Of a stretch of 64,000 nucleotides of DNA, positions 1-61,726 are shown one piece after another. The notes beneath the pieces are model-generated. The model saw nothing but the letters and a program-made list of their open reading frames with translations. It made no database searches and had not been told where the DNA came from. The stretch is from Alphaproteobacteria bacterium LSUCC0396 (GTDB lineage Bacteria > Pseudomonadota > Alphaproteobacteria > Puniceispirillales > Puniceispirillaceae). Made by a program: the position numbers and the translations under genes. Position 1 is the stretch's first letter. Every line of letters begins with the position of its first letter. The stretch covers positions 496,001 to 560,000 of the forward strand of contig CP166131.1 of the NCBI GenBank assembly GCA_041228345.1. Direction: 5' to 3'.

Positions 1-52
1 GGCCTTGGTTATAGGCCTTGGTTATAGGCCTTGGTTGCAGGCCTTGGTTACA
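1..52. repeat. Four tandem copies of a 13-bp unit
   Basis: The window opens with four head-to-tail copies of GGCCTTGGTTATA. The first two are identical; the third and fourth differ only in the last three bases (GCA, ACA). The array starts at the first base, so it may continue to the left. It lies beyond the 3' end of the small membrane-protein gene on the minus strand. No function can be read from it. Confidence 0.85.
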
Positions 53-36099: not shown

Positions 36100-37538
36100 C
36101 CGCGCAAATCCTGAATAATTTGTCACTTGCCAACCTGCCGGTTATTGCCGGCACCATCGTGATCGCATTGGGTCTAACAGGGCTGGTTCTATGGATCATT
36201 CAGCGCGGCCGCCCGCAGGTGGCGCCGGGCGAGCAAGCCCAGATTATATATCGGAAAATTGATCTTTTGCAGGCCGAACGTCAGCGCGCCGACCAAGAGC
36301 GTGCCGATAGCAATATCAGCACCGATGATTATGCCAGCGCTTGCCGCGATATTGACCGGCGGTTACTTGGCCTTAGCGCCGAGATGGACCGGCTCACGAC
36401 CATTGGTAACTCAATTTTGACATGGCCATCGGTGCTTGCCAGCTTGCTGGTGCCGGTGCTGTCGCTGGGGATTTATCTTGGCATTGGTAATCCTGACAGC
36501 CCGGACAGGCCTTTTGCCAGCCGGACCGCCGAAATTGCCGCGGCCAAGGCTGGCGCAAATGAAAATCAGAACGCCGCGGCCAATGCGCTTCGCGATGCCA
36601 TCGCTGCAACCGAAAAAGCCCCCCAAGATATCGAGGCTTGGTTAATGTTGGCACAGGCGGCGGCAAATGTTGGTGATAGCGAAACCGAGATTCGCGCCTT
36701 GCGCACCGGCATCGACATCACCAACGGCGACATTGCCATCACCTCAATGCTTGCCGAGGCGTTAAGCCGTGCCGCCGATGGTCAAGTGACAATTCCGGCG
36801 CGCGCATTGATAAAAACCGTGCTTGCGGCTGATCCGGCGGAACCACGAGCCCTATTTCTTGCCGGTCTGGCAGCGTTTCAAGATGGCGAATACGCCGCCT
36901 CTATCCAACAATGGCAATCATTGTTGGTCGTATCAAACCCGGATGCGCCGTGGGTTGCACTCGTGCGCGAGAATATACAGCGCGCCGCCGAGGCTGGTGA
37001 TATCGCTTTGCCCGCAAGCCAAACCGGAAATCAAGCCACTGGTGGCATGCCGTCAGGGCCAGATGCCGAGGATATCGCCAATGCGGCGAATATGACCGAG
37101 GCCGAACGCGATGAGATGATCGCCAGCATGGTAAAGCGACTAGAGGACCGGCTTGCCGAAACACCTGACGACACTGATGGCTGGGTTCGCCTTGCCCGCG
37201 CCTATGATGTATTGGGCAAAAGCGAGGCCGCGCTCGAAGCCCTAGCCAAGGCGGCAAAATCGGCACCGGATGACCTTGATATTCAGCTAAGCCTGCTGGA
37301 GCTTATTCTTGCCACTGGTAACACAAGCGCCGATATAACACGCGCAAGCGCCGCGCTTGCCGCTGCCAAGGCGATCGCACCAAACAACCCGCAAACATTA
37401 TTTTTCGAAGGGCATCTTGCCCGCCTGTCTGGAGATAATGATGCCGCGCGTACCGCATGGCAGGCATTGCTGAAAATGATGGAACCGGGCAGTGGCGCGG
37501 CGAAAGCACTGGCAGCCGAGATCAAGAAACTCGACTAG
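36096..37538 (+). CDS. ccmI: Cytochrome c maturation chaperone CcmI (CycH type)
   Basis: This 480-residue protein has two membrane helices (about residues 11-31 and 105-124) separated by a cytoplasmic loop with a coiled-coil-like segment rich in Glu, Arg and Gln. A long periplasmic domain with TPR-type repeats follows; segments such as DTDGWVRLARAYDVLGKSEAALEAL (about 360-385) show the TPR pattern. It holds the C-terminus of apocytochrome c for the CcmF/H lyase. It is the last gene of ccmFGHI and overlaps ccmH by four bases. Confidence 0.92.
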   Translation: MTAQILNNLSLANLPVIAGTIVIALGLTGLVLWIIQRGRPQVAPGEQAQIIYRKIDLLQAERQRADQERADSNISTDDYASACRDIDRRLLGLSAEMDRLTTIGNSILTWPSVLASLLVPVLSLGIYLGIGNPDSPDRPFASRTAEIAAAKAGANENQNAAANALRDAIAATEKAPQDIEAWLMLAQAAANVGDSETEIRALRTGIDITNGDIAITSMLAEALSRAADGQVTIPARALIKTVLAADPAEPRALFLAGLAAFQDGEYAASIQQWQSLLVVSNPDAPWVALVRENIQRAAEAGDIALPASQTGNQATGGMPSGPDAEDIANAANMTEAERDEMIASMVKRLEDRLAETPDDTDGWVRLARAYDVLGKSEAALEALAKAAKSAPDDLDIQLSLLELILATGNTSADITRASAALAAAKAIAPNNPQTLFFEGHLARLSGDNDAARTAWQALLKMMEPGSGAAKALAAEIKKLD

Positions 37539-45708: not shown

Positions 45709-45736
45709 TGGCATTGATCAGCAAATATAGGGGAGA

Positions 45737-45750
45737 TGGTGCGGCCGAGA
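45737..45750 (-). repeat. Attachment core, copy 1 (tRNA 3'-end-like)
   Basis: On the minus strand this reads TCTCGGCCGCACCA, like the acceptor end of a tRNA (probably leucine) including CCA. No tRNA body lies on its 5' side. It is the leftmost of four direct copies and marks the junction with the yajQ side of the chromosome. Confidence 0.7.
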
Positions 45751-45757
45751 AGGGTTA

Positions 45758-45833
45758 GCACCATTTTCCTTCTGAAACCCAAAGAAAATATAGCGATATG
45801 TCCATTTTATGCCCCTAGGTCGTACAAATGGTC
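45758..45833 (+). repeat. Island 1 inverted repeat, left arm
   Basis: This arm is the reverse complement of 48074-48150, with three substitutions and one gap. It begins with GCACC, a partial inverted copy of the core, and ends at the 3' end of the transporter gene. It contains a repeated GTCGTAC/GACCATT element that may be an integrase arm site. Confidence 0.8.
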
Positions 45834-46785
45834 ACGTCCTTAAACTTGTTTTGACCGCAATGGGCTTATTTTTAACTCCCTCACGGAAAAATATATAAAT
45901 CCCACTCAGCGTGATCAAAGTCATACCAACAAACGAAAAGTAGTCTGGGATTTCACCGAACAACCAATAACCATTAACTATCGCAAACACCAATAACACG
46001 TACTCAAACGGTGCAATTACAGGTGGATTTGAAATCCTGTAAGCGCTTGTAAGAAGCAGCATACCGCAGCTTCCGATGCATGCTATGGTCAAGATAGCTA
46101 AAATTGCATTCCAATCAGATATCACCCAAGGCCGCAGCAGATAGGCATAGCTTTTTGAAGTGCCAATATCTGGGCCTATCAGAGAGATTATGATTGAAGC
46201 GACAAGCCCTAGGATGCAACTACCCCAATACAAATGCATCATTTGCTGCCAAACGCTGTCTCTATCACGTGTATATTTAGCTATCATCATTGAGACCGAA
46301 TATGTGAACGCCGAGACAAGCGGCAGCAAAGCGATCATTTCAAATTTGTTTGGGCTAGGTTTCACTATCAGAATAACACCTGCAAAACCGGTCAAAACCG
46401 CCCCTAAACGATGAAAACCAATGTGATTTTTGAACAAAAACTTTGATATTATCGTCACGAATATTGGGCTAAAGAAGAATAGACTAGTAACCTCCGCTAG
46501 CCCCATTTCGCTGAGCGCAAAATAAAAGCAAAGAAACCCAGAGAAAAATAGTATGACCCGGCATAAAGCTAGCTTTGGATAGGATGAAGTAAATAAAATA
46601 GGACGACCCGTTAGCTTCAAAAACGCTATAAGAATTGACCCGCCGATCAGTCCTCTGATTGTCATGATTTGGGGTAGTGAGGCTACATCAGCCAAATGCC
46701 TAACTAGTATGTCCTGAACACTGAATAGTGACATTCCAACCAAAATAAAGAGAATGCCACGCACATCATCGTTCATCGAGATCAT
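45832..46785 (-). CDS. EamA/DMT-family transporter (island 1)
   Basis: This 317-residue inner-membrane protein has ten hydrophobic helices arranged as two EamA repeats (about residues 8-140 and 155-295). Family features include a long first helix GILFILVGMSLFSVQDILV and LGAVLTGFAGVILIVKP closing the first half. The second half ends SFVGMTLITLSGIYIFF. The substrate is unknown; relatives export amino acids, metabolites or drugs. Codon use is AT-rich compared with genes left of 45 kb. It is the only cargo of island 1, and its stop lies inside the left inverted arm. An alternative start is at 46776. Confidence 0.85.
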   Translation of the reverse strand: MISMNDDVRGILFILVGMSLFSVQDILVRHLADVASLPQIMTIRGLIGGSILIAFLKLTGRPILFTSSYPKLALCRVILFFSGFLCFYFALSEMGLAEVTSLFFFSPIFVTIISKFLFKNHIGFHRLGAVLTGFAGVILIVKPSPNKFEMIALLPLVSAFTYSVSMMIAKYTRDRDSVWQQMMHLYWGSCILGLVASIIISLIGPDIGTSKSYAYLLRPWVISDWNAILAILTIACIGSCGMLLLTSAYRISNPPVIAPFEYVLLVFAIVNGYWLFGEIPDYFSFVGMTLITLSGIYIFFREGVKNKPIAVKTSLRT

Positions 46786-46896
46786 CTCATCAGTTAATGA
46801 ACCTCAAGATTGATTTAAAAAGCACGCTTAATCAATAATTTTATCAATAAAAACAGTCGTATAATGAACATTTAGTATCCTTTTTACGTCAAAGAC

Positions 46897-48066
46897 TTAT
46901 TCAAATCTACTCAGTGGTGCTGCCGCAGATGCTGGAAGGACGATAGCTTGCATCCATCGACTAGTGATCTCGATTTCGTAACCTTCCCCATAACTTTGAC
47001 CCACGCCCGATGTCTTCCATCCATCCAGTTGATCAATGATGTCCGGCGGAAATTCGACAGCCCTGAGCCGATCGCGAAAACTGTGACGGAATGAATGGAC
47101 AACACAGCCATCAGGAACTAACGGCCGCAGCCATTTATTTAACCCATTACTAGCGTAGTCCGACTTATTGCCTTCCGGTGAGAAATAACGAGGAAACAAA
47201 AAGTCACTTTCGGAAGACGCTTGAGCGCGTTTTATGCCCCACAGAGTGGCTCCAACGGCTGGAACGCGCCTTTGACTATTCTCAGTCTTTAGAGGCCTCC
47301 AAGGCCGCTCTGTGAGCGTTATAAGCGGTACTTTGCAATCCAAAGATATATCTTGCTTAGTGAGACCGATCGCTTCAGCTAACCGCATACGGCTGTCAGA
47401 CAAAACAGCTATTAACCAACGCATCTCGTCATCTTTGCGTCGGCACTCTTCCTGAATAACTCGCAATTGCTCATACGGTATGGGCAAACGCCGAACAGGC
47501 TTGGCGCCGTTGCCATAATTCATGTTTGAGAAGGGGTTCACTGCATCAATAGCATTTTCAGTTGCGATGAAGTTCCATATGGCGCGAATACACTCAAAAT
47601 TCCGTTTTACTGTGGCTTGCGCGACCCCTCTGGCAACAAGTGTATCGCTAAACCGAAATGCATCAGCACGAGTATAGGCCTTGATAGACTTGTTTCCAGA
47701 AACAGCCACTACCTCTGCTACCACTCGGCTTACATAACCACAGAACCGTTTATCGTCAGACTTACCCCTCATTTTACAACAAGTATCGGCAGCCTCTGTC
47801 AGTAACAGCACCTGTAGAATCCCTGATTTCAGGAAATCTGATGCGGCCACACCTTTTGGCAAAGTAAAACGTAAATCCTGCCATTCTTTTTCAAGCGACA
47901 GGACTATATCACTGGATATGCGAACGGCTTGCGCTCGGTCTCGCGTTCTCAACGATTTTTGGATAGAATGTTTCCCATAATGCGGCACAAGATCCGTTGG
48001 AATGCGGTTTTGAAGGTAGTAAATACCGCATTTGCGTTACAAATAAGGAGCTGAAACTTTCGTCAT
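46897..48066 (-). pseudogene. Tyrosine integrase with in-frame stop at codon 10 (island 1)
   Basis: From the ATG at 48066 the frame reads MTKVSAPYL, then TAA at 48037-48039, then continues RKCGIYYLQNRIPTDL into the long frame that resumes with GTG at 47988 (363 residues). The downstream part keeps the phage-integrase core: DSRMRLAEAIGL (catalytic Arg), HSFRHSFRDRL (His-x-x-Arg) and VGQSYGEGYE (nucleophile Tyr). The N-terminal piece matches the start expected for this family, so the TAA most simply replaces a Gln codon. Starting at GTG 47988 would give a protein lacking about 26 N-terminal residues of the DNA-arm domain, which might be active or not. Its 5' end faces the core at 48145. Confidence 0.75.
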
Positions 48067-48073
48067 AAAGTAC

Positions 48074-48150
48074 GACCATTTGTACGACCCTAGGGGCACA
48101 AAATGGACATATCGCTATATTTTCTGCGGGTTTCAGAAGGAAAATGGTGC
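48074..48150 (-). repeat. Island 1 inverted repeat, right arm
   Basis: This arm is the reverse complement of 45758-45833. It lies between the integrase start and the core at 48145, overlapping the first bases of the core, and so probably contains the integrase promoter and binding sites. Confidence 0.8.
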
Positions 48151-48158
48151 GGCCAAGA
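48145..48158 (-). repeat. Attachment core, copy 2 (one mismatch)
   Basis: TGGTGCGGCCAAGA differs from the other copies at one base. It separates island 1 from island 2. The following GAAGAGGTTCGATGCC resembles a tRNA T-arm at first sight but does not fold into a tRNA. Confidence 0.65.
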
Positions 48159-51771: not shown

Positions 51772-52782
51772 ATGAAAAAGTCCCAACTTGCTGGCAGTGT
51801 TCTTTTGCTGTCACTGACTGGCTGTTCTTCAATCGGCAGCGGTTGGAACAACACGGTCGACTTTATTTTCGGGCCGGAGGATGGCGCGGGTCAACGTCAA
51901 GAAGCCGCTGCCAAGATGGCATCTGATGCGGCCACTAGTGCCAACCCAGAACAGGCTTTGGTCGATAATATCGTCAAGAAAAGCGTTGATAAAGCCGCTA
52001 TGTCAACTGCGGCTGCCATCGACAATTCTATGGCCTATTCCAAAACTGACATCAGCATAACCGGCATTAAAAGTAAAAAGACACGTTATGCGATTACCAA
52101 TGTCAAGGGCTTTGAACCAAGCGATAATAGCCATGCGCAAACATTCATGCAGTCATCGTTAACTAACGCTAATTCAAGAGCTGTTTTGAATTTGGGTTTG
52201 GGGCGCCGTTATCTTAGTGATGATGAGAGCGTCATTACTGGCGTCAATGCCTTTTTGGACTATGACCCAAAATATGGACATCAGCGGGTCAGCATTGGGG
52301 CAGAGTTAAAATCCTCGGCGTTTGAATTAACCGCAAATAACTATAAAGCCCTAACCAAATGGAAAAAAGGCAAAAGCGGCAATCAAGAACGAGCGCTGGA
52401 CGGACATGATATCGAGCTTGGCGCACAAATCCCCTACATGCCGGCTGCAAAGCTTTATGTGAAAAATTGGAAATGGAAGGGCGAAGACGGCGCTGGTGAC
52501 ACCAAGGGTAATACCTACAGTTTAGCTTTCTCCCAGTTGATAAATGGTGTTCAAGTTGAGCTTGGCCGCAGAGATTATGATGGACTTCAAAAAGATGAAA
52601 ATTTTGGCCAATTAACCTACACCATTCCAATGGGGAGTGCGCCTGCGCAGTCTAGCCAGCCATTATTCTCAAGTGAGATGTTTGAAAGCGCGTCGATGAA
52701 AGACAAAATGCTCGATAAGGTTCGGCGTAATAACGCAATTGTAATCCAAACTAAGTTCGTTGCTGCGGTTGGTGGAGTTTAA
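51772..52782 (+). CDS. Lipoprotein with inverse-autotransporter-type beta-barrel domain
   Basis: This 336-residue protein has a lipoprotein signal, with lipobox LTGC at residues 15-18, so it is lipid-anchored. An Ala-rich linker follows (about 40-105). Residues about 125-300 match the inverse autotransporter (intimin/invasin) N-terminal barrel pattern: LNLGLGRRYLSDDESVITG, VNAFLDYDPKYGHQRVSIG, LTANNYKALTKWK and the repeated amphipathic strands after it. Unlike intimins there is no Ig-like passenger after the barrel. The next gene encodes a separate secreted protein that could be its partner. Expression is probably controlled by the divergent two-component system. Confidence 0.78.
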   Translation: MKKSQLAGSVLLLSLTGCSSIGSGWNNTVDFIFGPEDGAGQRQEAAAKMASDAATSANPEQALVDNIVKKSVDKAAMSTAAAIDNSMAYSKTDISITGIKSKKTRYAITNVKGFEPSDNSHAQTFMQSSLTNANSRAVLNLGLGRRYLSDDESVITGVNAFLDYDPKYGHQRVSIGAELKSSAFELTANNYKALTKWKKGKSGNQERALDGHDIELGAQIPYMPAAKLYVKNWKWKGEDGAGDTKGNTYSLAFSQLINGVQVELGRRDYDGLQKDENFGQLTYTIPMGSAPAQSSQPLFSSEMFESASMKDKMLDKVRRNNAIVIQTKFVAAVGGV

Positions 52783-54196: not shown

Positions 54197-54267
54197 CCTG
54201 CTCTAAAACATTAACTGTTTAGATACAGTTACTAGGCCACCGATCCGCGGTTCTTGAAACTAGGAAA

Positions 54268-54281
54268 TGGTGCGGCCGAGA
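54268..54281 (-). repeat. Attachment core, copy 3
   Basis: TGGTGCGGCCGAGA is identical to copies 1 and 4. It is the outer end of the 388-bp inverted repeat and the boundary between islands 2 and 3. Confidence 0.7.
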
Positions 54282-54655
54282 AAATCTATTATGCCTTACG
54301 TATGCACCATCACTGACCTGAACATCAGCAATACTCACATATTATGTGTCACTGACTCACTGTCAACAGGCACGTAATCTTTCACAGTTTCTTTCACAGT
54401 GAATAGAAATCTTCGGGTAATGGAATAAGCCTACATATCCTTATCGTTATCAGTACAGGGTAAGTGAGATATGTAGGTGATAGATACATATCCTTGTTAA
54501 GGACACCTGACTGTTAGCTTACAGTGCCTTAACAATCCCAATGTCAATAACACCTAACCACCTATGGGGCGGCGGGCGCCACCCCCCAGCCGCACGTATA
54601 TATAAATGGACAATTACACAGATCAGTCTTTAAAAGTGTTAACCACTATCAGTTG
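54268..54655 (+). repeat. 388-bp inverted repeat, left arm
   Basis: This is the reverse complement of 57436-57823, with only about three differences, all near 54,590. It starts with the attachment core and contains the perfect palindrome CACATATTATGTG (54336-54348) plus several shorter inverted elements. No gene lies in it. With the next 140 bp it forms a gene-free stretch of nearly 600 bp. Confidence 0.92.
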
Positions 54656-54680
54656 TCATTCTTGTCATTTGTGTCATTTT
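54654..54680 (+). repeat. Iteron-like 9-bp repeats, cluster 1
   Basis: TGTCATT occurs three times at an exact 9-bp spacing (54654, 54663, 54672), at the inner edge of the 388-bp repeat. The same triplets recur inverted at 57228-57252 and direct at 57306-57330. They could be arm-type binding sites or replication iterons. Confidence 0.75.
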
Positions 54681-54793
54681 TAATGAAGGCGTGCTTTGGA
54701 TTGTGGCTAGATTAATCAGTCTAGGTTTGTCAGGTAATATCTGAGTAGTTAATTGGAAGCAAAATGATTATTGTATTTTTTAGGGCCTGACGA

Positions 54794-55246
54794 TTGGTAC
54801 GTGCTGGTCTTCTTATTCACCTGATCATGACTACTATTGCCGGAATTTATCCTGCCAGTGCGGCAGACTCTGCAAGGCGTGATATTTCCTGTGGCAATTA
54901 CCGCTACATCATAGAGAAATCTTTATTTGGTGTTAATGTCAACATCATGAATATTAATGATAATATTATTGCCTCAACCGAACGTCCTTATTGTCAATCA
55001 AACCCCGATGCTCAGATGGTGGCTGAACTTTCAGTAGATGGTGATGATATATGGTGTGTTGAAAAGTTCTTTATCGTGATGGATCGAAAGCCCATTGCAA
55101 AAACTTCGCGTTTGCTAAGCCTCACTCTGGACCGCGTCTTTGAATATGACTATTTGTGGCAAGCTGGTGACTGGGTAAAAGCTGACACACGGACCATTAC
55201 TTGTGCCAGTCACAAAGAGCCTAAAATGAAAAAAATCCCCGATTAG
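54794..55246 (+). CDS. Small secreted protein of unknown function (island 3)
   Basis: This 150-residue product starts at TTG (54794), or at ATG 54827. The N-terminus (LLIHLIMTTIAGIYPASAADS) is a signal peptide with an AxA-type cleavage site. The mature part contains four cysteines (DISCGNYRY, PYCQSN, IWCVEK, ITCASH), likely two disulfides. I do not recognise a family. The TTG start keeps an arginine before the hydrophobic stretch, which suits a signal peptide. It precedes two transporter genes on the same strand and lies inside the potentially invertible module. Confidence 0.6.
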   Translation: MVRAGLLIHLIMTTIAGIYPASAADSARRDISCGNYRYIIEKSLFGVNVNIMNINDNIIASTERPYCQSNPDAQMVAELSVDGDDIWCVEKFFIVMDRKPIAKTSRLLSLTLDRVFEYDYLWQAGDWVKADTRTITCASHKEPKMKKIPD

Positions 55247-55365
55247 GACTGGTAATTTCTCGCCTCGCTCCTTTGTTGTCCTATCCTATTGGTTCTAACC
55301 GCGCAGGTAAGTGAACTCAACCATTAGCCTCGCAAAAGGCGCTTTGATTAGTTTGTGAGGAAATT

Positions 55366-56229
55366 ATGAGTGCAAATCTGAAAAGTATAATCCTAATGGT
55401 TATTGGGATGGGTTGTTTAACCTTAGGTGATTTGCTGATCAAAATCGCCAGCCAAACATTACCGCTCGGACAGGTAATGATTATATTTGGTGCCGGCTCA
55501 ATAACAGTATTTTTGGGGGTTATGCGTATTGAGGGTGAGTCTGTTCGGCTATCGCCATTCACTAATCTTGCAGTAGTGTTGAGAAATATTGGTGACCTTA
55601 TTGCCATAAATGGTATGTGCTTGGCATTAGTATTTGTTCCCATATCCACTATTGGGGCAGTGATTCAAACTGTACCATTGATGGTTACCGCAGCCGCAGC
55701 TTTGTTTCTTGGCGAGCGAGTTGGCCCACGGAGATGGTTGGCCATTCTTATTGGTTTTTTAGGAACTCTGCTTATCATCCAGCCGGGTGCTGCTACCTTT
55801 GATATCGCGACAACCCTTGTATTGATTGCTGCAGCAGGTATGACGTTACGAGATATAACGACCAAGCTGGTTCATGAAAATTTTTCAACTCTGCTTCTGT
55901 CCTCGTATACGTCTGTACTATTTATAATAAGTGGCGGCGTTTTACTCATAATCTCAGGTGGAGCCAGCATACCTGATATAAAGATGATAGCCATACTTGT
56001 AGCAATGATCGCCTGCGGTTCTTTGGGTTTTTTCTTTACAACTAAGGCTGTCAGGTTGGGAGATGTGTCTGTTGTAATCCCTTTTCGTTACACTCGACTT
56101 CTGTTTTCTGTGGCGGCTGGCATTTTAATTCTTGGCGAGCAGGTAAATTTGATCATGCTAATTGGTAGCGCTTTAACGATTTCATCTGGCCTTTACATTT
56201 GGCGCAGAGAAATTGTTATTCAAAATTAA
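55366..56229 (+). CDS. EamA/DMT-family transporter (island 3, first)
   Basis: This 287-residue membrane protein has ten helices in two EamA repeats. The first (about 5-140) includes VVLRNIGDLIAINGMCLALV and LGERVGPRRWLAILIGFLG. The second (about 150-283) ends LGEQVNLIMLIGSALTISSG. GAGGAAATT precedes the start. It is followed after about 100 bp by a second EamA gene that is clearly different in sequence, so this is not a tandem duplication. The substrate is unknown. Confidence 0.87.
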   Translation: MSANLKSIILMVIGMGCLTLGDLLIKIASQTLPLGQVMIIFGAGSITVFLGVMRIEGESVRLSPFTNLAVVLRNIGDLIAINGMCLALVFVPISTIGAVIQTVPLMVTAAAALFLGERVGPRRWLAILIGFLGTLLIIQPGAATFDIATTLVLIAAAGMTLRDITTKLVHENFSTLLLSSYTSVLFIISGGVLLIISGGASIPDIKMIAILVAMIACGSLGFFFTTKAVRLGDVSVVIPFRYTRLLFSVAAGILILGEQVNLIMLIGSALTISSGLYIWRREIVIQN

Positions 56230-56331
56230 AATAGGCGTGGCAAGAAATTGCCTCGCTTTCTCATACAGCTTTCGATTAGTGTTTTTTTCAAAATGAAATA
56301 ATCCTATTTTCCTCATAAATTCAGAGCAAAA

Positions 56332-57210
56332 ATGACAAAGCCTATTGCTACAATATTAGTCCTTTTTGGGGCTTCAATGATGAGTTTTGTTGGGGTCCTG
56401 ATGAGGCTGCTCGATGAGGCTACGGGGTTCCAAATTCTTTTCTATCGGTCAATTAGCCTCACATTAATGGTTTTGCTGGTCGTCTGTATTCGGCGCAGAA
56501 CCACTCCTTCATTTTTCATCAAATCAATTGATAAGCATGACCTGCTGATGGGAGGCTGGCTTTCAGTAGCCTTCACCACGTACATTTTCTCTATGCTCTG
56601 GAGTTCAGTTGCATCAACCCTATTAATCATCACTATTGCACCGTTTCTTGCTGCAGTAATTGCTTGGAAGTGGATTGGTGAAACTCCCCACCCTGTTACA
56701 TGGCCAACCATGATCGTTGCAACTTTTGGCGTGGGCTTAATGGTTTATGATGGGGCTAATCTTGGTTATTCACTGGGAAATATCAGTGCATTTGTCTCTG
56801 CATTATGCTTTGCCATAATGCTAGTTGTAGCAAGGCGCAGTCAAAAAACGGATGTTTTAGGCGGAACGTTCATGGCTGGCGTATTTAGCGTTTTACTTGG
56901 AGCCATAACCGCAGTTGTTTTTGATGGCAGCCTTAAAGTCAGCCAATCAGATATTTCAATTATTTTATTTATGGGTGCCTTCACTATTGGTCTTGGAATC
57001 GCTTTGGTAACAACTGGAACAGGATATATCCCTGCTGCAGAGGTAAGTCTACTTGTGTTGATTGAAAGTGTTTTGGGTCCAATTTGGCCGTGGGTGTTTT
57101 TAGGTGAACCAATCACTATTTATGAAATTATCGGCGGAGTAATTACACTTTTAGCCGTAGCTGCCTTCACTATTTATAGTCGTAAATCACGAGTGCCTTT
57201 ATCTGATTGA
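56332..57210 (+). CDS. EamA/DMT-family transporter (island 3, second)
   Basis: This 292-residue membrane protein has two EamA repeats. FQILFYRSISLTLMVLLVV lies in the first half and LLVLIESVLGPIWPWVFLGE, the classic EamA signature around helices eight and nine, in the second. The C-terminus is a short basic tail. It is co-directional with the other transporter gene, from which it has diverged. The pair may form a heterodimer or act independently. It lies just inside the right arm of the inverted repeats. Confidence 0.88.
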   Translation: MTKPIATILVLFGASMMSFVGVLMRLLDEATGFQILFYRSISLTLMVLLVVCIRRRTTPSFFIKSIDKHDLLMGGWLSVAFTTYIFSMLWSSVASTLLIITIAPFLAAVIAWKWIGETPHPVTWPTMIVATFGVGLMVYDGANLGYSLGNISAFVSALCFAIMLVVARRSQKTDVLGGTFMAGVFSVLLGAITAVVFDGSLKVSQSDISIILFMGAFTIGLGIALVTTGTGYIPAAEVSLLVLIESVLGPIWPWVFLGEPITIYEIIGGVITLLAVAAFTIYSRKSRVPLSD

Positions 57211-57227
57211 GTTAACCCCCGCCTCCC

Positions 57228-57252
57228 AATGACACAAATGACAAGAATGACA
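57228..57252 (-). repeat. Iteron-like 9-bp repeats, cluster 2 (inverted)
   Basis: AATGACA occurs three times at 9-bp spacing. This cluster is the inverted counterpart of 54654-54680. It is separated from the right 388-bp arm by about 180 bp of extra sequence that begins and ends with CAACTGAT. Confidence 0.7.
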
Positions 57253-57305
57253 ACTGATCTATAAACCTCTGCCAATTCTTCTCATGGACGACTTTCCATT
57301 TCCTT

Positions 57306-57330
57306 TGTCATTTCTGTCATTCCTGTCACA
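57306..57330 (+). repeat. Iteron-like 9-bp repeats, cluster 3
   Basis: TGTCATT, TGTCATT and TGTCACA occur at 9-bp spacing inside the extra segment, facing cluster 2 and able to pair with it as a long hairpin. Confidence 0.65.
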
Positions 57331-57435
57331 TACCCATTTAAAAAGATCACCAATAATGCATCACGTATTAGGCACCGGCTTTGCCTAAACACGTTTATGG
57401 GCATTTTAGTGACTCATTGAATTGCACTTAAATGG

Positions 57436-57823
57436 CAACTGATAGTGGTTAACACTTTTAAAGACTGATCTGTGTAATTGTCCATTTATATATATGTGTG
57501 GCAGGGGGGTGGCGCCCGCCGCCCCATAGGTGGTTAGGTGTTATTGACATTGGGATTGTTAAGGCACTGTAAGCTAACAGTCAGGTGTCCTTAACAAGGA
57601 TATGTATCTATCACCTACATATCTCACTTACCCTGTACTGATAACGATAAGGATATGTAGGCTTATTCCATTACCCGAAGATTTCTATTCACTGTGAAAG
57701 AAACTGTGAAAGATTACGTGCCTGTTGACAGTGAGTCAGTGACACATAATATGTGAGTATTGCTGATGTTCAGGTCAGTGATGGTGCATACGTAAGGCAT
57801 AATAGATTTTCTCGGCCGCACCA
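57436..57823 (-). repeat. 388-bp inverted repeat, right arm
   Basis: This is the reverse complement of 54268-54655 at the same length. It ends with the inverted attachment core at 57810-57823, which it shares with the 78-bp repeat of the neighbouring integrase module. Confidence 0.92.
57810..57823 (+). repeat. Attachment core, inverted copy
   Basis: TCTCGGCCGCACCA on the plus strand is the only copy of the core in this orientation. It is the joint between the two modules of island 3. Confidence 0.75.
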
Positions 57824-57887
57824 TCTTCTCATCTAAACACCTGATATGTCGGCACATTATGTGCAACAGATTAGGCGTGTGAAATAG
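57810..57887 (+). repeat. 78-bp inverted repeat, left arm
   Basis: This is the reverse complement of 59306-59383 except at one base. It contains the perfect palindrome GCACATTATGTGC (57852-57864) in this arm, a likely protein-binding site. Confidence 0.92.
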
Positions 57888-57939
57888 ACACTCACGAAAT
57901 CTGATGCTCCATCGTACTTACAGTAAATTGAGTATCAAC

Positions 57940-58158
57940 ATGGAATTTTTACTTCTTTGGGTTCTTGGTGGAAATGTATTGGACAGCGGTCTTCGCTATG
58001 AAGATGCTGGCAGCTGCTACGCTGCTGCTCAGAACAGCGGTAAAGACCTCCAAGAAATAGGCCTGTCTCCACCCAAGTTCACTTGTGTTCCAGTTGCCGA
58101 AGGCAAAGAATTGAAACTGCTGGTTCCTGAACAGCAAGGTTCACGCTTTCCATTCTGA
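57940..58158 (+). CDS. Small protein of unknown function (island 3)
   Basis: This short product of 72 residues starts MEFLLLWVLGGNVLDSGLRY with a hydrophobic N-terminus. It then has GSCYAAAQN and FTCVPVAEG, two cysteines about 35 residues apart. A longer start at 57904 adds 12 residues. It converges on the integrase gene with a 6-bp gap. It resembles small exported or membrane-tethered proteins often seen in marine bacterial accessory DNA, but I cannot name a family. The position inside the integrase module suggests it travels with it. Confidence 0.5.
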   Translation: MEFLLLWVLGGNVLDSGLRYEDAGSCYAAAQNSGKDLQEIGLSPPKFTCVPVAEGKELKLLVPEQQGSRFPF

Positions 58159-58164
58159 TACAGA

Positions 58165-59304
58165 TTAGAGTCTCCTCATCCACTTCTCTAAGACCTCTAA
58201 TGGATACCCATTCCCATATCCATGACCTACGCCAGAGGTCTTCCAGCCTCCTATTGCATCAACAATATCCGATGGACATTCCACGGCTCTTAAACGGTCA
58301 CGAAGACTATGTCTAAAGCTATGAATGACACAGTTGTCTGGCACGTATTGATGCAGCCATTTATTAAGACCACCACTAGCTGAGTTGGCTTTACAGCTTG
58401 CTGCATCGCAGTATCTAGGAAAAGCAAAGATACTATCATTGTTGGCCTCTAGAAGCCTCTTAGACGCCCACAGAGTAGCCCCAACAAGCGGAATACATCT
58501 GTGACTGCCTTTGGTCTTTAAACTCCTCCACGGATGAGGTTTAAGGTCTATGTGAGGTATACAGTCATCTAGTTTTATGTCTTCTTTCAGTAACCCAGCT
58601 GCTTCTCCTAATCTCATGCCAGTGTCACTGATAAGAGCAATGAGCCACCGCATCTCATCGTCTATGTCTTTGCACAGAGATTGCACCCTCTTGATGTCTT
58701 GAATGGATATTGGCTGTCTTGATTGAGCATCATCATCATCAGGAAAGTAAGTCTTGGCAAAGGCATTGGAACAATCCAGCCCCTCCTCTGCTATCGCTAG
58801 GTTCACTATGGCTCTTATTGATGAAAAGACACGCTTGACTGTCTTAATACCCATACCTTTATCAATACACCAATCACGAAACTGAGCAGCTTCATTGGAG
58901 GAGTAAGAGGATATGGGTCTATCGCCCAAGAGTTTGGTCACATAGCTAGTGTTACGATTGGCGGTTCTTATGAACACCTTGTCTTTACCCACGCCTTTCA
59001 GCCGCAGGTATAACTCACAGGCTTCAGACAGAAGTAAACCATCATTAACAGCAGAATCACTTGATTTGACCACTTGAATAGCAGGTATATCCATATTTTG
59101 CAGTCGCAAACCAAGCCAATAATCCTCAAGGCGTTGGTTTATTGATTTGCTTGCACGAACAGCTACAGAGGCTGATTTGGTTTTAAGGCTGAAGCAGAGC
59201 CTACTCACATTATAGTAGGCAATTAGGTCATAAGGTATGTGACGAACATAATAGTAAACACCATCACGATTCATCACGTGTTCGGGAGCAAATTTCTTTC
59301 TCAT
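58165..59304 (-). CDS. Tyrosine-family site-specific integrase (island 3)
   Basis: This 379-residue recombinase appears intact. The N-terminal arm-binding region (MRKKFAPEHVMNRDGVYYYVRHIPYDL) matches the family start. A core-binding SAM-like domain lies at about 105-185. The catalytic domain has DTGMRLGEAAGL (Arg), HSFRHSLRDRL (His-x-x-Arg) and VGHGYGNGY (Tyr). Its start is just inside the 78-bp arm that ends in core 4, so its promoter lies in the repeat. It is the best candidate for the enzyme that moves or inverts the modules here. Confidence 0.93.
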   Translation of the reverse strand: MRKKFAPEHVMNRDGVYYYVRHIPYDLIAYYNVSRLCFSLKTKSASVAVRASKSINQRLEDYWLGLRLQNMDIPAIQVVKSSDSAVNDGLLLSEACELYLRLKGVGKDKVFIRTANRNTSYVTKLLGDRPISSYSSNEAAQFRDWCIDKGMGIKTVKRVFSSIRAIVNLAIAEEGLDCSNAFAKTYFPDDDDAQSRQPISIQDIKRVQSLCKDIDDEMRWLIALISDTGMRLGEAAGLLKEDIKLDDCIPHIDLKPHPWRSLKTKGSHRCIPLVGATLWASKRLLEANNDSIFAFPRYCDAASCKANSASGGLNKWLHQYVPDNCVIHSFRHSLRDRLRAVECPSDIVDAIGGWKTSGVGHGYGNGYPLEVLEKWMRRL

Positions 59305-59305
59305 T

Positions 59306-59383
59306 CTATTTCACACGCCTAATCTGTTGCACATAATGTGCAGACATATCAGGTGTTTAGATGAGAAGATGGTGCGGCCGAGA
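59306..59383 (-). repeat. 78-bp inverted repeat, right arm
   Basis: This is the partner of 57810-57887. It lies between the integrase start and the right end of core 4 and must contain the integrase promoter. Confidence 0.92.
59370..59383 (-). repeat. Attachment core, copy 4
   Basis: TGGTGCGGCCGAGA, identical to copies 1 and 3. A partial second copy, TGGTGCGG, follows at 59390-59397. No tRNA body is found to the right within the window. Confidence 0.7.
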
Positions 59384-59668: not shown

Positions 59669-61726
59669 TCATTTTTTAGGATTCATGGTGAACATAAATA
59701 TTTGCCCACCTGCATCACCGCCGTGCGCTTCCACAGCTCCACTCGATTCTGGACGAGCCTGAACCACTCCAATGTAGGTTTGCTCTGCGGTGCTGATTTT
59801 GCTGCGAATGTCCTGACGAGCCGTTCCTTTCAATTCTTCCATGGAGTAGAAAGAGCCATCAGTTTTCTTTGCAATTAGTGCAGTTACAGGCCATGAACCT
59901 GAAAATTCGGTTGTTCCTGGCTTAGTGAAAGCGCCACCCAGTGCAGATACACCCGCTTCATAACGTGAGCTGTATTTACCGCCGGAAATTGCTAGAAGAT
60001 GGGCATCAGTGACGTTCATGTCATCGTCGATTGTCAGCACATATTTGCGTTCGCCGAAGTCATTTCCTGAGTCTTCGTCTACAATCAAATAGTCACCGTC
60101 TGCTGTTTTAGCCCAATAAAGTCCATCAGGATCAACCATCTTAGCGACACCTTTTTCCATATGGATAGACGCATCACCACCTTTCACCTTACCTTCGCCA
60201 CCAACCTTTAGAGTTAAAGCGCCATCCACAGCTGCAACAGCCCGTTTGACTGAAACATCGAGAAATGCAGGAAGCTCACCCTTAGCTAGATTAAGAGCCT
60301 CAGCAAGGTTGCCAAGGTCAAAAGCAAGCAAGCCGCCTTCGTCAGTCATGTTTTGGAAATAACGCGCAGCCCCTGAAGGGTCAGCAGCAGGGTGTTCTGT
60401 TTTTGTGTCTCCATTAAAGAAGGCATAACCTTTTGGCTGTTCCTCTTTTTGTTCCCATAACATCATCTCTGTGTCTTGCACGGCGAGTGGTTTATCAAAG
60501 CCCTGCCATTGATAAGATGTTGGATAAAAACGACCATTGAAACTATTCGGAGCATCCTTGTTTTTCATATAGTCATCAACCATTTTTGCATCGAGTTTTG
60601 CCTCAATACCCAGTTTGGCGAATGTCTCACGAGCAAGTGCTAATCCATAGATTTTGCCATATAACAGGCCATTTCTCGCAAGGAATGCGTCACGTTCATT
60701 TGCTGTTGCATAGTTAATTTTGCTGCCATCTGCTCGGCGGTCTTTAATGCCAACATAAATACGATTCGGCGCTGGTTCTTGGCCATGATTGTAGCCAGCT
60801 GCCACGATAACCACGTAATCCTTATGGCCTGAGTTGATTGGCATTAGCTTTTCATAACCAGTTTGACCGAGAGCGGGAACCGTATATGCGGTCCGATTGG
60901 CAATATCCACGACAACACTCGCCAGACCCAGCGTTGATGCCGAGTCATGTTTCCCAGCAGGGAACATCTGCCCAATTTCCCACTCCTCAGCGGTCAGCCA
61001 GACATCGTCTCGAAAACCAATACCTTGACCATATTTATTCGCTTGCTCGTACCACGCTCCGCAGAAACTCTGGAAAAAATAATCAGCTTCGCTCAGGCGG
61101 AAATTCGGCTTAAACTGAACAAGTGTTCCGTCGGGTCGGGTTTGGTTGCCCCATTTGCCAGACAGGTAGGATGGGTCGAAAGATGGTGCAGAGACAATCT
61201 CGCCGAAACCGTTATATACTGTGTCAAATAGTTTCCCTGAGCCTTTTACCATCCCCTTTGCGGAGTTTGCATTCTTCATAAAGTCTGCAAATTTTGCTCT
61301 ATCATAATCGATGGTATGGATGTGGGAGCCTGTGAAGGTTACACCATTCTTCATTCTCCAGGGATATGTTTCTGGCCGTGGGGCGCGGCCCATCGTTGCA
61401 TATGACTCACTTTGATAGATCACCCTTACAGTTTCATCATCTGTGAGCATGGCTGCATGACCATCTGGATAGCCTGTCAAAGTTTCACCAGAAACAACGT
61501 CAACTTCGCCAACAGTTGCAATAGCTTTGAAGCTGGCAAAAGGAAAATTTGTATTAGCGCTTTCACCATCTTTCAAAGGCTTTGTTGCAAGACCAGCCTC
61601 AGGAATAAGAGCAGTGGTCTCGCCGATTACTTTTTGCGAGCCGTGGCTGCCAGCAACCGCTGAAAAAACAACTGAAGTAGATAGCAAAGTGGTGCTTAAA
61701 AGCGCAGTGAGAATTAGGTGTTTCAT
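59669..61726 (-). CDS. Large secreted protein, possibly PhoX/DUF839-like
   Basis: This 685-residue protein has a signal peptide (MKHLILTALLSTTLLSTSVV, cleavage near SAVAGS). It contains PSYLSGKWGNQTRPDGTLV, a middle region with YVVIVAAGYNHGQEPAPNRIY, and LIVDEDSGNDFGERKYVLTI near residue 560, which resembles the metal-binding repeats of PhoX-type (DUF839) enzymes. The C-terminus has RQDIRSKISTAEQTYIGVVQ and a Gly-Gly-His-rich segment GAVEAHGGDAGGQIF. I am unsure of the family. A calcium-dependent extracellular phosphatase or a related beta-propeller enzyme is the best guess. It is a single gene with its own strong terminator. Confidence 0.6.
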   Translation of the reverse strand: MKHLILTALLSTTLLSTSVVFSAVAGSHGSQKVIGETTALIPEAGLATKPLKDGESANTNFPFASFKAIATVGEVDVVSGETLTGYPDGHAAMLTDDETVRVIYQSESYATMGRAPRPETYPWRMKNGVTFTGSHIHTIDYDRAKFADFMKNANSAKGMVKGSGKLFDTVYNGFGEIVSAPSFDPSYLSGKWGNQTRPDGTLVQFKPNFRLSEADYFFQSFCGAWYEQANKYGQGIGFRDDVWLTAEEWEIGQMFPAGKHDSASTLGLASVVVDIANRTAYTVPALGQTGYEKLMPINSGHKDYVVIVAAGYNHGQEPAPNRIYVGIKDRRADGSKINYATANERDAFLARNGLLYGKIYGLALARETFAKLGIEAKLDAKMVDDYMKNKDAPNSFNGRFYPTSYQWQGFDKPLAVQDTEMMLWEQKEEQPKGYAFFNGDTKTEHPAADPSGAARYFQNMTDEGGLLAFDLGNLAEALNLAKGELPAFLDVSVKRAVAAVDGALTLKVGGEGKVKGGDASIHMEKGVAKMVDPDGLYWAKTADGDYLIVDEDSGNDFGERKYVLTIDDDMNVTDAHLLAISGGKYSSRYEAGVSALGGAFTKPGTTEFSGSWPVTALIAKKTDGSFYSMEELKGTARQDIRSKISTAEQTYIGVVQARPESSGAVEAHGGDAGGQIFMFTMNPKK

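Follow-up and report, generated by a model that had tools for sequence, protein, structure and literature searches.

The integrase module and its inverted arms

The window, i.e. the whole stretch of 64,000 nt that was analysed, belongs to a 2.59-Mb genome assembled as a single contig. At 57810-59383 it contains a module that holds, as a preliminary description of this DNA had stated, only an integrase and one small ORF. The integrase (379 aa; 58165-59304, reverse strand) carries the DUF6538 and Phage_integrase domains of Pfam, and the ORF (84 aa; 57904-58158, forward strand) is convergent with it, starts 16 nt inside the distal arm and gave no match in Pfam. The Pfam domains, the invariant residues and the fold match indicate an intact tyrosine integrase. 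Residues R231, K263, H328, R331, W354 and Y363, which we take to be the catalytic ones, are invariant across 11 relatives, and the best fold matches of the predicted structure were the Tn1549 and lambda integrases, to which both the N-terminal domain and the catalytic fold of the model appear alike. The N-terminal domain is strand-rich in this prediction, whose quality is modest (mean pLDDT 80, pTM 0.49).

Both genes are enclosed by inverted arms at 57810-57888 and 59305-59383, with a spacing of 1416 nt. The arms had been described as 78 bp long with 77 matches; they are real and measured 79 nt, with 78 of 79 positions identical (98.7% complementary; BLAST E 3e-36). The attachment core noticed at the tips of both is TCTCGGCCGCACCATC, the 3′ end of tRNA-Leu(GAG) including the CCA. 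The arm on the tRNA side (59305-59383, reverse strand; inverted copy at 57810-57888) consists of the core (59368-59383) and a P′ arm, and abuts the start codon of the integrase upstream. Chance or an assembly artefact was ruled out, the same layout being present in this single-contig genome, in a Ruegeria megaplasmid labelled complete (TM1040) and in many independent genomes; it is neither accidental nor a lone case.

Structure of the whole element

The key to the structure was a larger inverted repeat, absent from the preliminary description, at 54262-54660 and 57431-57829 (399 nt, 98%). It encloses two genes for EamA-family transporters (55366-56229 and 56332-57210; cargo 55366-57210, forward strand), upstream of which there is an ORF of 150 aa (54794-55246), and shares the core at 57810 with the smaller repeat. 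A complete attachment site, here called attP2, is thereby found in inverted orientation between integrase and cargo (57431-57888, forward strand), with a P arm (57431-57809), the core from 57810 and a P′ arm (to 57888). The far end of the element (54262-54660, reverse strand) is the inverted copy of 57431-57829 and comprises a P arm and a direct core (54266-54281). The whole twin-site element (54282-59383, reverse strand) thus spans 5.1 kb, with an integrase half at 57810-59383 and a cargo half at 54282-57809. When integrated, its order is: tRNA ending in the core, P′, integrase, inverted P′, inverted core, inverted P, cargo, P, direct core and flank. The smaller repeat pairs the P′ half of attL with that of attP2, and the 399-nt repeat pairs the P half of attP2 with that of attR. 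When the two outer ends were joined on paper into attP1, this was identical to attP2 at 453 of 458 nt.

The boundary formed by inverted cores that had been proposed as unusual did not stand, because complete elements end in the usual direct cores (attL and attR) and the inverted core is internal. Judged from the sequence, the integrative element consists of two halves, of which the module is the one nearer the tRNA, and we consider it almost certain that this anatomy comprises direct ends plus a second complete, inverted attachment site between integrase and cargo. By analogy with other tRNA-targeting tyrosine integrases, it is also highly probable that attP1 is the site which the integrase recombines with the tRNA 3′ end.

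The tandem array at tRNA-Leu(GAG)

The tRNA-Leu(GAG) gene (G000:C1:562167-562253; L036:4167-4253) lies 2.2 kb past the end of the window and is followed on its 3′ side by a tandem array of islands. Copies of the core were located at genome positions 541735(-), 544143(-), 550266(-), 553810(+), 555368(-) and 562165(-), the single inverted one (553810) being that of the preliminary description. The distal direct core (45735-45750, reverse strand; genome position 541735) was taken as the chromosomal boundary of the whole array because the flank in genome G021 is homologous up to this core and the homology stops just after it. No clean empty site was found among the genus genomes, where a query of the joined Leu(GAG) flanks matched only as separate pieces.

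Another island of the array (island 1; 45735-48158, reverse strand) had been considered of the same design. It does have inverted P′ arms (45758-45833 and 48074-48150; 95%) around an integrase (46945-48051) and an EamA transporter (45832-46785), but its outer cores are direct (45735-45750 and 48143-48158) and the two designs are not identical. Island 1 is probably a derived form that has no cargo half.

Occurrence in related genomes

This genome contains paralogues of the integrase on the 3′ side of tRNA-Arg, Thr, Phe, Gly and Leu(TAA). The Arg, Thr, Phe and Leu(TAA) loci have inverted arms tipped with the inverted tRNA end; the Gly locus does not, nor does the first integrase of the Leu(GAG) array, which is damaged. 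Within the family, 48 of 61 genomes contain a related integrase. A scan of named genome contigs gave 300 confirmed relatives, of which the best 80 were taken; these include records labelled Ruegeria, Thioclava, Maritalea, Nitratireductor, Thalassovita, Tranquillimonas, Roseivivax, Donghicola, Tropicimonas and BAL199. The de-duplicated set comprised 125 integrases with an intact N-terminus, 105 of them nearly full length and, among these 105, 61 with at least 1500 bp downstream.

The repeat was present in 44 of these 61 integrases. Of the 41 having both a tRNA directly upstream and at least 1500 bp downstream, 33 carried it, the other eight having none by the criteria used. Altogether, the 125 integrases yielded 83 modules with a median arm of 82 bp and a mean identity of 97.9%, the repeat being perfect in 42 of the 83, although some of these modules are close relatives and not independent, near-identical loci from two collections having been merged only if 400 nt of integrase were identical. 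Fifty-five of the 83 are anchored at tRNA genes of the Phe, Leu, Arg, Thr, Gly, Asn and SeC types, and in 52 of these 55 the exact 14-nt tRNA end is present, inverted, in the distal arm. The module had been suggested to be a distinct unit, in which case the arms should be conserved near homologous integrases, and this is what the 83 de-duplicated modules indicate. The survey covered integrases retaining the N-terminus and repeats shorter than 200 nt, so that two loci, L128 (reversed) and L198, fall outside it. Chimeras formed during multiple displacement amplification (MDA) can produce false inversions in single-cell genomes; L198, a palindrome of 2.3 kb, is suspected to be such a chimera, and the main claim is independent of such cases.

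As a control, distant relatives of the integrase were considered, many of which lie beside tRNAs. Such repeats were present in none of 14, and among the 10 with a testable tRNA a direct copy of the core was found in five and an inverted one in none. In a tree built by a quick method and with long outgroup branches, the outgroup is on one side of a branch with a support of 99; integrases bearing the repeat (73) occur in all the large ingroup branches and those without it (15) are scattered, 12 further members being too short. These data bear on the idea that the second inverted site has no role and was left behind by earlier integration or inversion. That some loci have lost it agrees with this idea, which is nevertheless improbable given that the second site recurs throughout the integrase tree, spans the full apparent attP and is present in copies that seem to evolve in concert.

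The recurrence of this layout in tRNA-inserted elements of many marine Alphaproteobacteria suggests that such elements are built, and perhaps inserted, in a manner not described before. No description of it was found in the open-access literature, subscription papers lying outside the search. An integrase bounded by inverted tRNA ends also offers a simple sequence mark for finding and delimiting islands. In 32 of the 83 modules the available sequence ends at most 600 bp from the distal tip, and the twin-site layout may explain why short-read contigs stop there.

Complete elements and modules with an inverted core only

Where the downstream sequence sufficed, complete elements were recognized by a partner of the P arm ending at a direct core. 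There are 12 of them: those at the Leu(GAG) and Thr loci of this genome, two each in G015, G001 and G056, and those of L073, L111, BAL199 and TM1040. They measure 4.3-15.5 kb, and attP1 and attP2 are 93.7-100% identical over 189-1216 aligned nt (n = 12). The tRNA-Phe element of Ruegeria sp. TM1040 has perfect P arms of 1148 bp which flank a set of type I restriction-modification genes; both arms contain, in inverted orientation, a BRO-family gene with a single protein accession (L266:26363-26938 and 36707-37282).

At the Phe, Arg and Leu(TAA) loci of this genome and in G040 and G007, only the inverted core was found, with no direct core within about 30 kb. The P-type sequence continues past the inverted core at the Phe locus. 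We tentatively read these modules as remnants. In addition, a sequence located after the tRNA-Phe module (L039:11471-11764) recurs in many genomes of the family, with at most 92% identity over most of its length and more in shorter pieces, and is a dispersed repeat. The tRNA-Phe locus of G015 (L089) consists of a forward module whose two P′ arms are unlike, beyond which come a core and the first P′ arm once more; it is a mosaic of two elements.

The preliminary description had also supposed that the module may move like a transposon, that is, as a small unit mobilized by its terminal inverted repeats. Inverted arms do tightly enclose the integrase, and at some loci the inverted core is the only one present. 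However, the 79-bp arm occurs just twice in the whole genome, the 12 complete elements terminate in direct cores and not in these inverted repeats, solitary modules keep P-type sequence past the inverted core, and 55 modules are anchored by their tips in tRNA genes. Such movement is consequently most improbable.

Orientation and evolution of the attachment sites

In all 55 tRNA-anchored modules with the repeat, the integrase reads away from the tRNA. A separate check of 154 integrase hits revealed two loci with the integrase facing the tRNA, giving 55 against 2. One (L083, on the same contig as L202) has two unlike arms, and the other (L128) a repeat of 113 bp at 95% and a broken integrase. 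The reversed state therefore exists but is rare, and shows that the module can invert or that the other site can be used. The inversion that had been suggested for the module is borne out to this extent; the almost fixed orientation does not agree with a freely flipping switch.

Integrase-specific words are shared by the P and P′ arms of the same locus: with 63 of 67 loci used, their common 8-mers number 103, while mismatched arm pairs gave 29 on average and 57 at the most (500 shuffles). The shared words are often in direct orientation, near P -103 to -117 and P′ +54 to +66. They look as would be expected of arm-type integrase sites, and attP2 looks like a whole, functional attP. The integrase of the window and that of L072 are 81.9% identical in DNA, and their arms 51.9%, against 98.7% and 97.5% for the arm pairs within each locus; the paired arms of one locus thus appear to evolve in concert. 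Such drift was not seen in other pairs, and the arms of L187 and L188 are identical between the two loci.

Related pairs with integrases 84-98% identical in DNA were also compared past the inverted core. The homology stops at 110-222 bp in 8 of the 11 pairs, and in the remaining three it extends for about 290 bp (73%, with gaps), 746 bp (to the contig end) and 1.5 kb. A stop at 110-222 bp places the replacement of the cargo at the outer end of P, whereas the integrase would cut at the core. The cargo accordingly turns over, and attP2 remains in its entirety with the integrase. This result weakens the idea of a cassette exchange through crossing over at the core, since P travels with the integrase.

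These observations are pertinent to a double-strand alternative, according to which the element integrates in the ordinary manner and attP2 serves for inverting the integrase or cargo half, or for reassorting halves between elements of a tandem array, much like a natural recombinase-mediated cassette exchange. Tandem arrays at one tRNA, the module with unlike arms at the G015 Phe locus, the two reversed modules and the wholly different cargo carried by related integrase halves are all in its favor. Nevertheless, if two identical sites were used equally, about half of the modules should be reversed, against the 2 of 57 seen, and in 8 of 11 pairs the position at which the cargo changes is the outer end of P rather than the core. 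We regard this alternative as fairly unlikely.

Proposed integration route

Our leading guess, tentative but placed ahead of the double-strand alternative, is that attP2 serves for integration of a folded single strand. The element would arrive single-stranded, always with the same polarity; by pairing within the strand, attP1 and attP2 would make up a single duplex attP, from which one loop with the integrase and another with the cargo protrude; and a one-strand exchange at the tRNA would yield exactly the observed order, replication supplying the other strand. The main reason for favoring folding is that both orientations should often arise from two equivalent sites on a double-stranded circle, but not from a folded single strand used in a strand-specific way. 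The model would also explain why the whole site and not only the core is duplicated and inverted, why the copies stay alike and why the direction of the integrase is nearly constant. Against it, the orientation would stay fixed only if all the strands had the same polarity, and ordinary uptake of DNA would not ensure this; ordinary double-strand integration through attP1 alone would also produce the same anatomy.

A precedent for a one-strand route using a folded single-stranded attP is the CTX phage (PMC5357621), and it is counted in favor of the model; it is also the nearest precedent. CTX-type IMEX phages likewise have two inverted copies of the attachment site (attP1/attP2) able to pair within one strand (PMC5357621). 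They differ in depending on the host Xer/XerCD recombinases and the dif site, in contrast to an own integrase and a tRNA here, and in the distance between sites, 90 nt against 1.3-4.5 kb here. Moreover, the arms here are full, with apparent integrase-specific arm sites, and the single-strand route is hypothetical.

Other known systems share parts of the layout. Islands of the lambda/Tn916 type also target the tRNA 3′ end through a tyrosine integrase beside the tRNA and have direct attL and attR cores; the elements described here likewise combine an intact tyrosine integrase, insertion at a tRNA 3′ end and direct outer cores (12 complete elements), and are distinguished by the second complete, inverted attP inside the integrated element, between integrase and cargo. 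Being tRNA-anchored tyrosine recombinase elements with cargo, they also resemble the tycheposons, which carry nutrient and defence genes in marine bacteria and for which the part of the source available does not mention a twin inverted site (PMC10872708). In Thermococcus pTN3, a tyrosine integrase acting on inverted tRNA-derived sites causes inversion; its inverted sites were engineered or chromosomal (PMC5495485), in contrast to those described here, which belong permanently to the element. Natural inverted attP pairs are, finally, similar in layout to the engineered cassette-exchange sites used in Drosophila.

Overall, the explanation to which we incline, by a little more than an even chance, is that of a two-part element in which attP1 would be used at the tRNA, the folded single strand being, as a guess less likely than not, the purpose of attP2. 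It draws on the 12 complete elements, the inverted tRNA ends in 52 of 55 modules, the words shared by P and P′, the concerted arms, the 55:2 orientation and the 0 of 14 distant relatives; it is opposed by the two reversed modules, by the 8 of 41 without the repeat, by the Phe, Arg and Leu(TAA) loci of this genome without a direct core and by the fact that neither a single-stranded intermediate nor, in the part of the cargo ORFs scanned, a relaxase or rolling-circle gene was seen. That these elements might constitute a new class, widespread in marine Alphaproteobacteria and inserting with their own integrase as a folded single strand, with the orientation fixed by one strand exchange, is rather unlikely on the present data. 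The conserved second attachment site gives a strong indication of how such small elements, with no transfer gene in the cargo scanned, enter and settle.

Cargo genes

In addition to the EamA transporters of the element in the window, a fatty acid hydroxylase was identified as cargo, and DUF1330, MASE1-like and TrmB-like ORFs are found inside integrase halves. One cargo scan gave GH32, an ABC transporter, a ROK regulator and a primase-like protein, and a macro domain was also detected. Further cargo includes PrsW protease, an inverse autotransporter, Prim-Pol and AAA proteins, TRAP and TctA transporters, a sulfatase and ComA. In G015 (L090:4783-15229), cytosine methylase, HATPase, Z1, DUF4420 and AIPR make up a phage-defence-like set in a twin-site element. 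The elements bring transporters and genes for sugar and sulfonate use, restriction and other defence, often several in tandem at one tRNA. No relaxase, rolling-circle or capsid gene was present in the part of the cargo ORFs that was scanned.

In the yeast 2-micron plasmid, two inverted recombination sites divide the circle into halves, one of which holds the recombinase gene. An analogous amplification could be envisaged here, in which recombination between inverted sites on a circle during replication flips the fork and multiplies the element. The topology, with the recombinase gene in one half, and the primase- or helicase-like genes of two cargo sets fit this proposal. It is clearly improbable, however, as a replication gene is missing from most of the cargo scanned and no circle was seen: viral contigs contained no relative and no excised circle or phage form, and phages only distant integrases (25-29% identity). 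Unlike the plasmid, these elements integrate into tRNA genes and have bacterial cargo, and no copy-number system was found.

Finally, some additional features of the islands were recorded. Genes with an inverse autotransporter beta-domain are cargo both in the window (51772-52782) and in a G056 element (L100:9164-11314). A protein of 685 aa without Pfam match (window 59669-61726) has homologues near the tRNA-Phe locus of G015 (89%) and in G040 (56%), and is a recurrent island gene. The beginning of the window (1-52) consists of tandem 13-bp units (GGCCTTGGTTATA).
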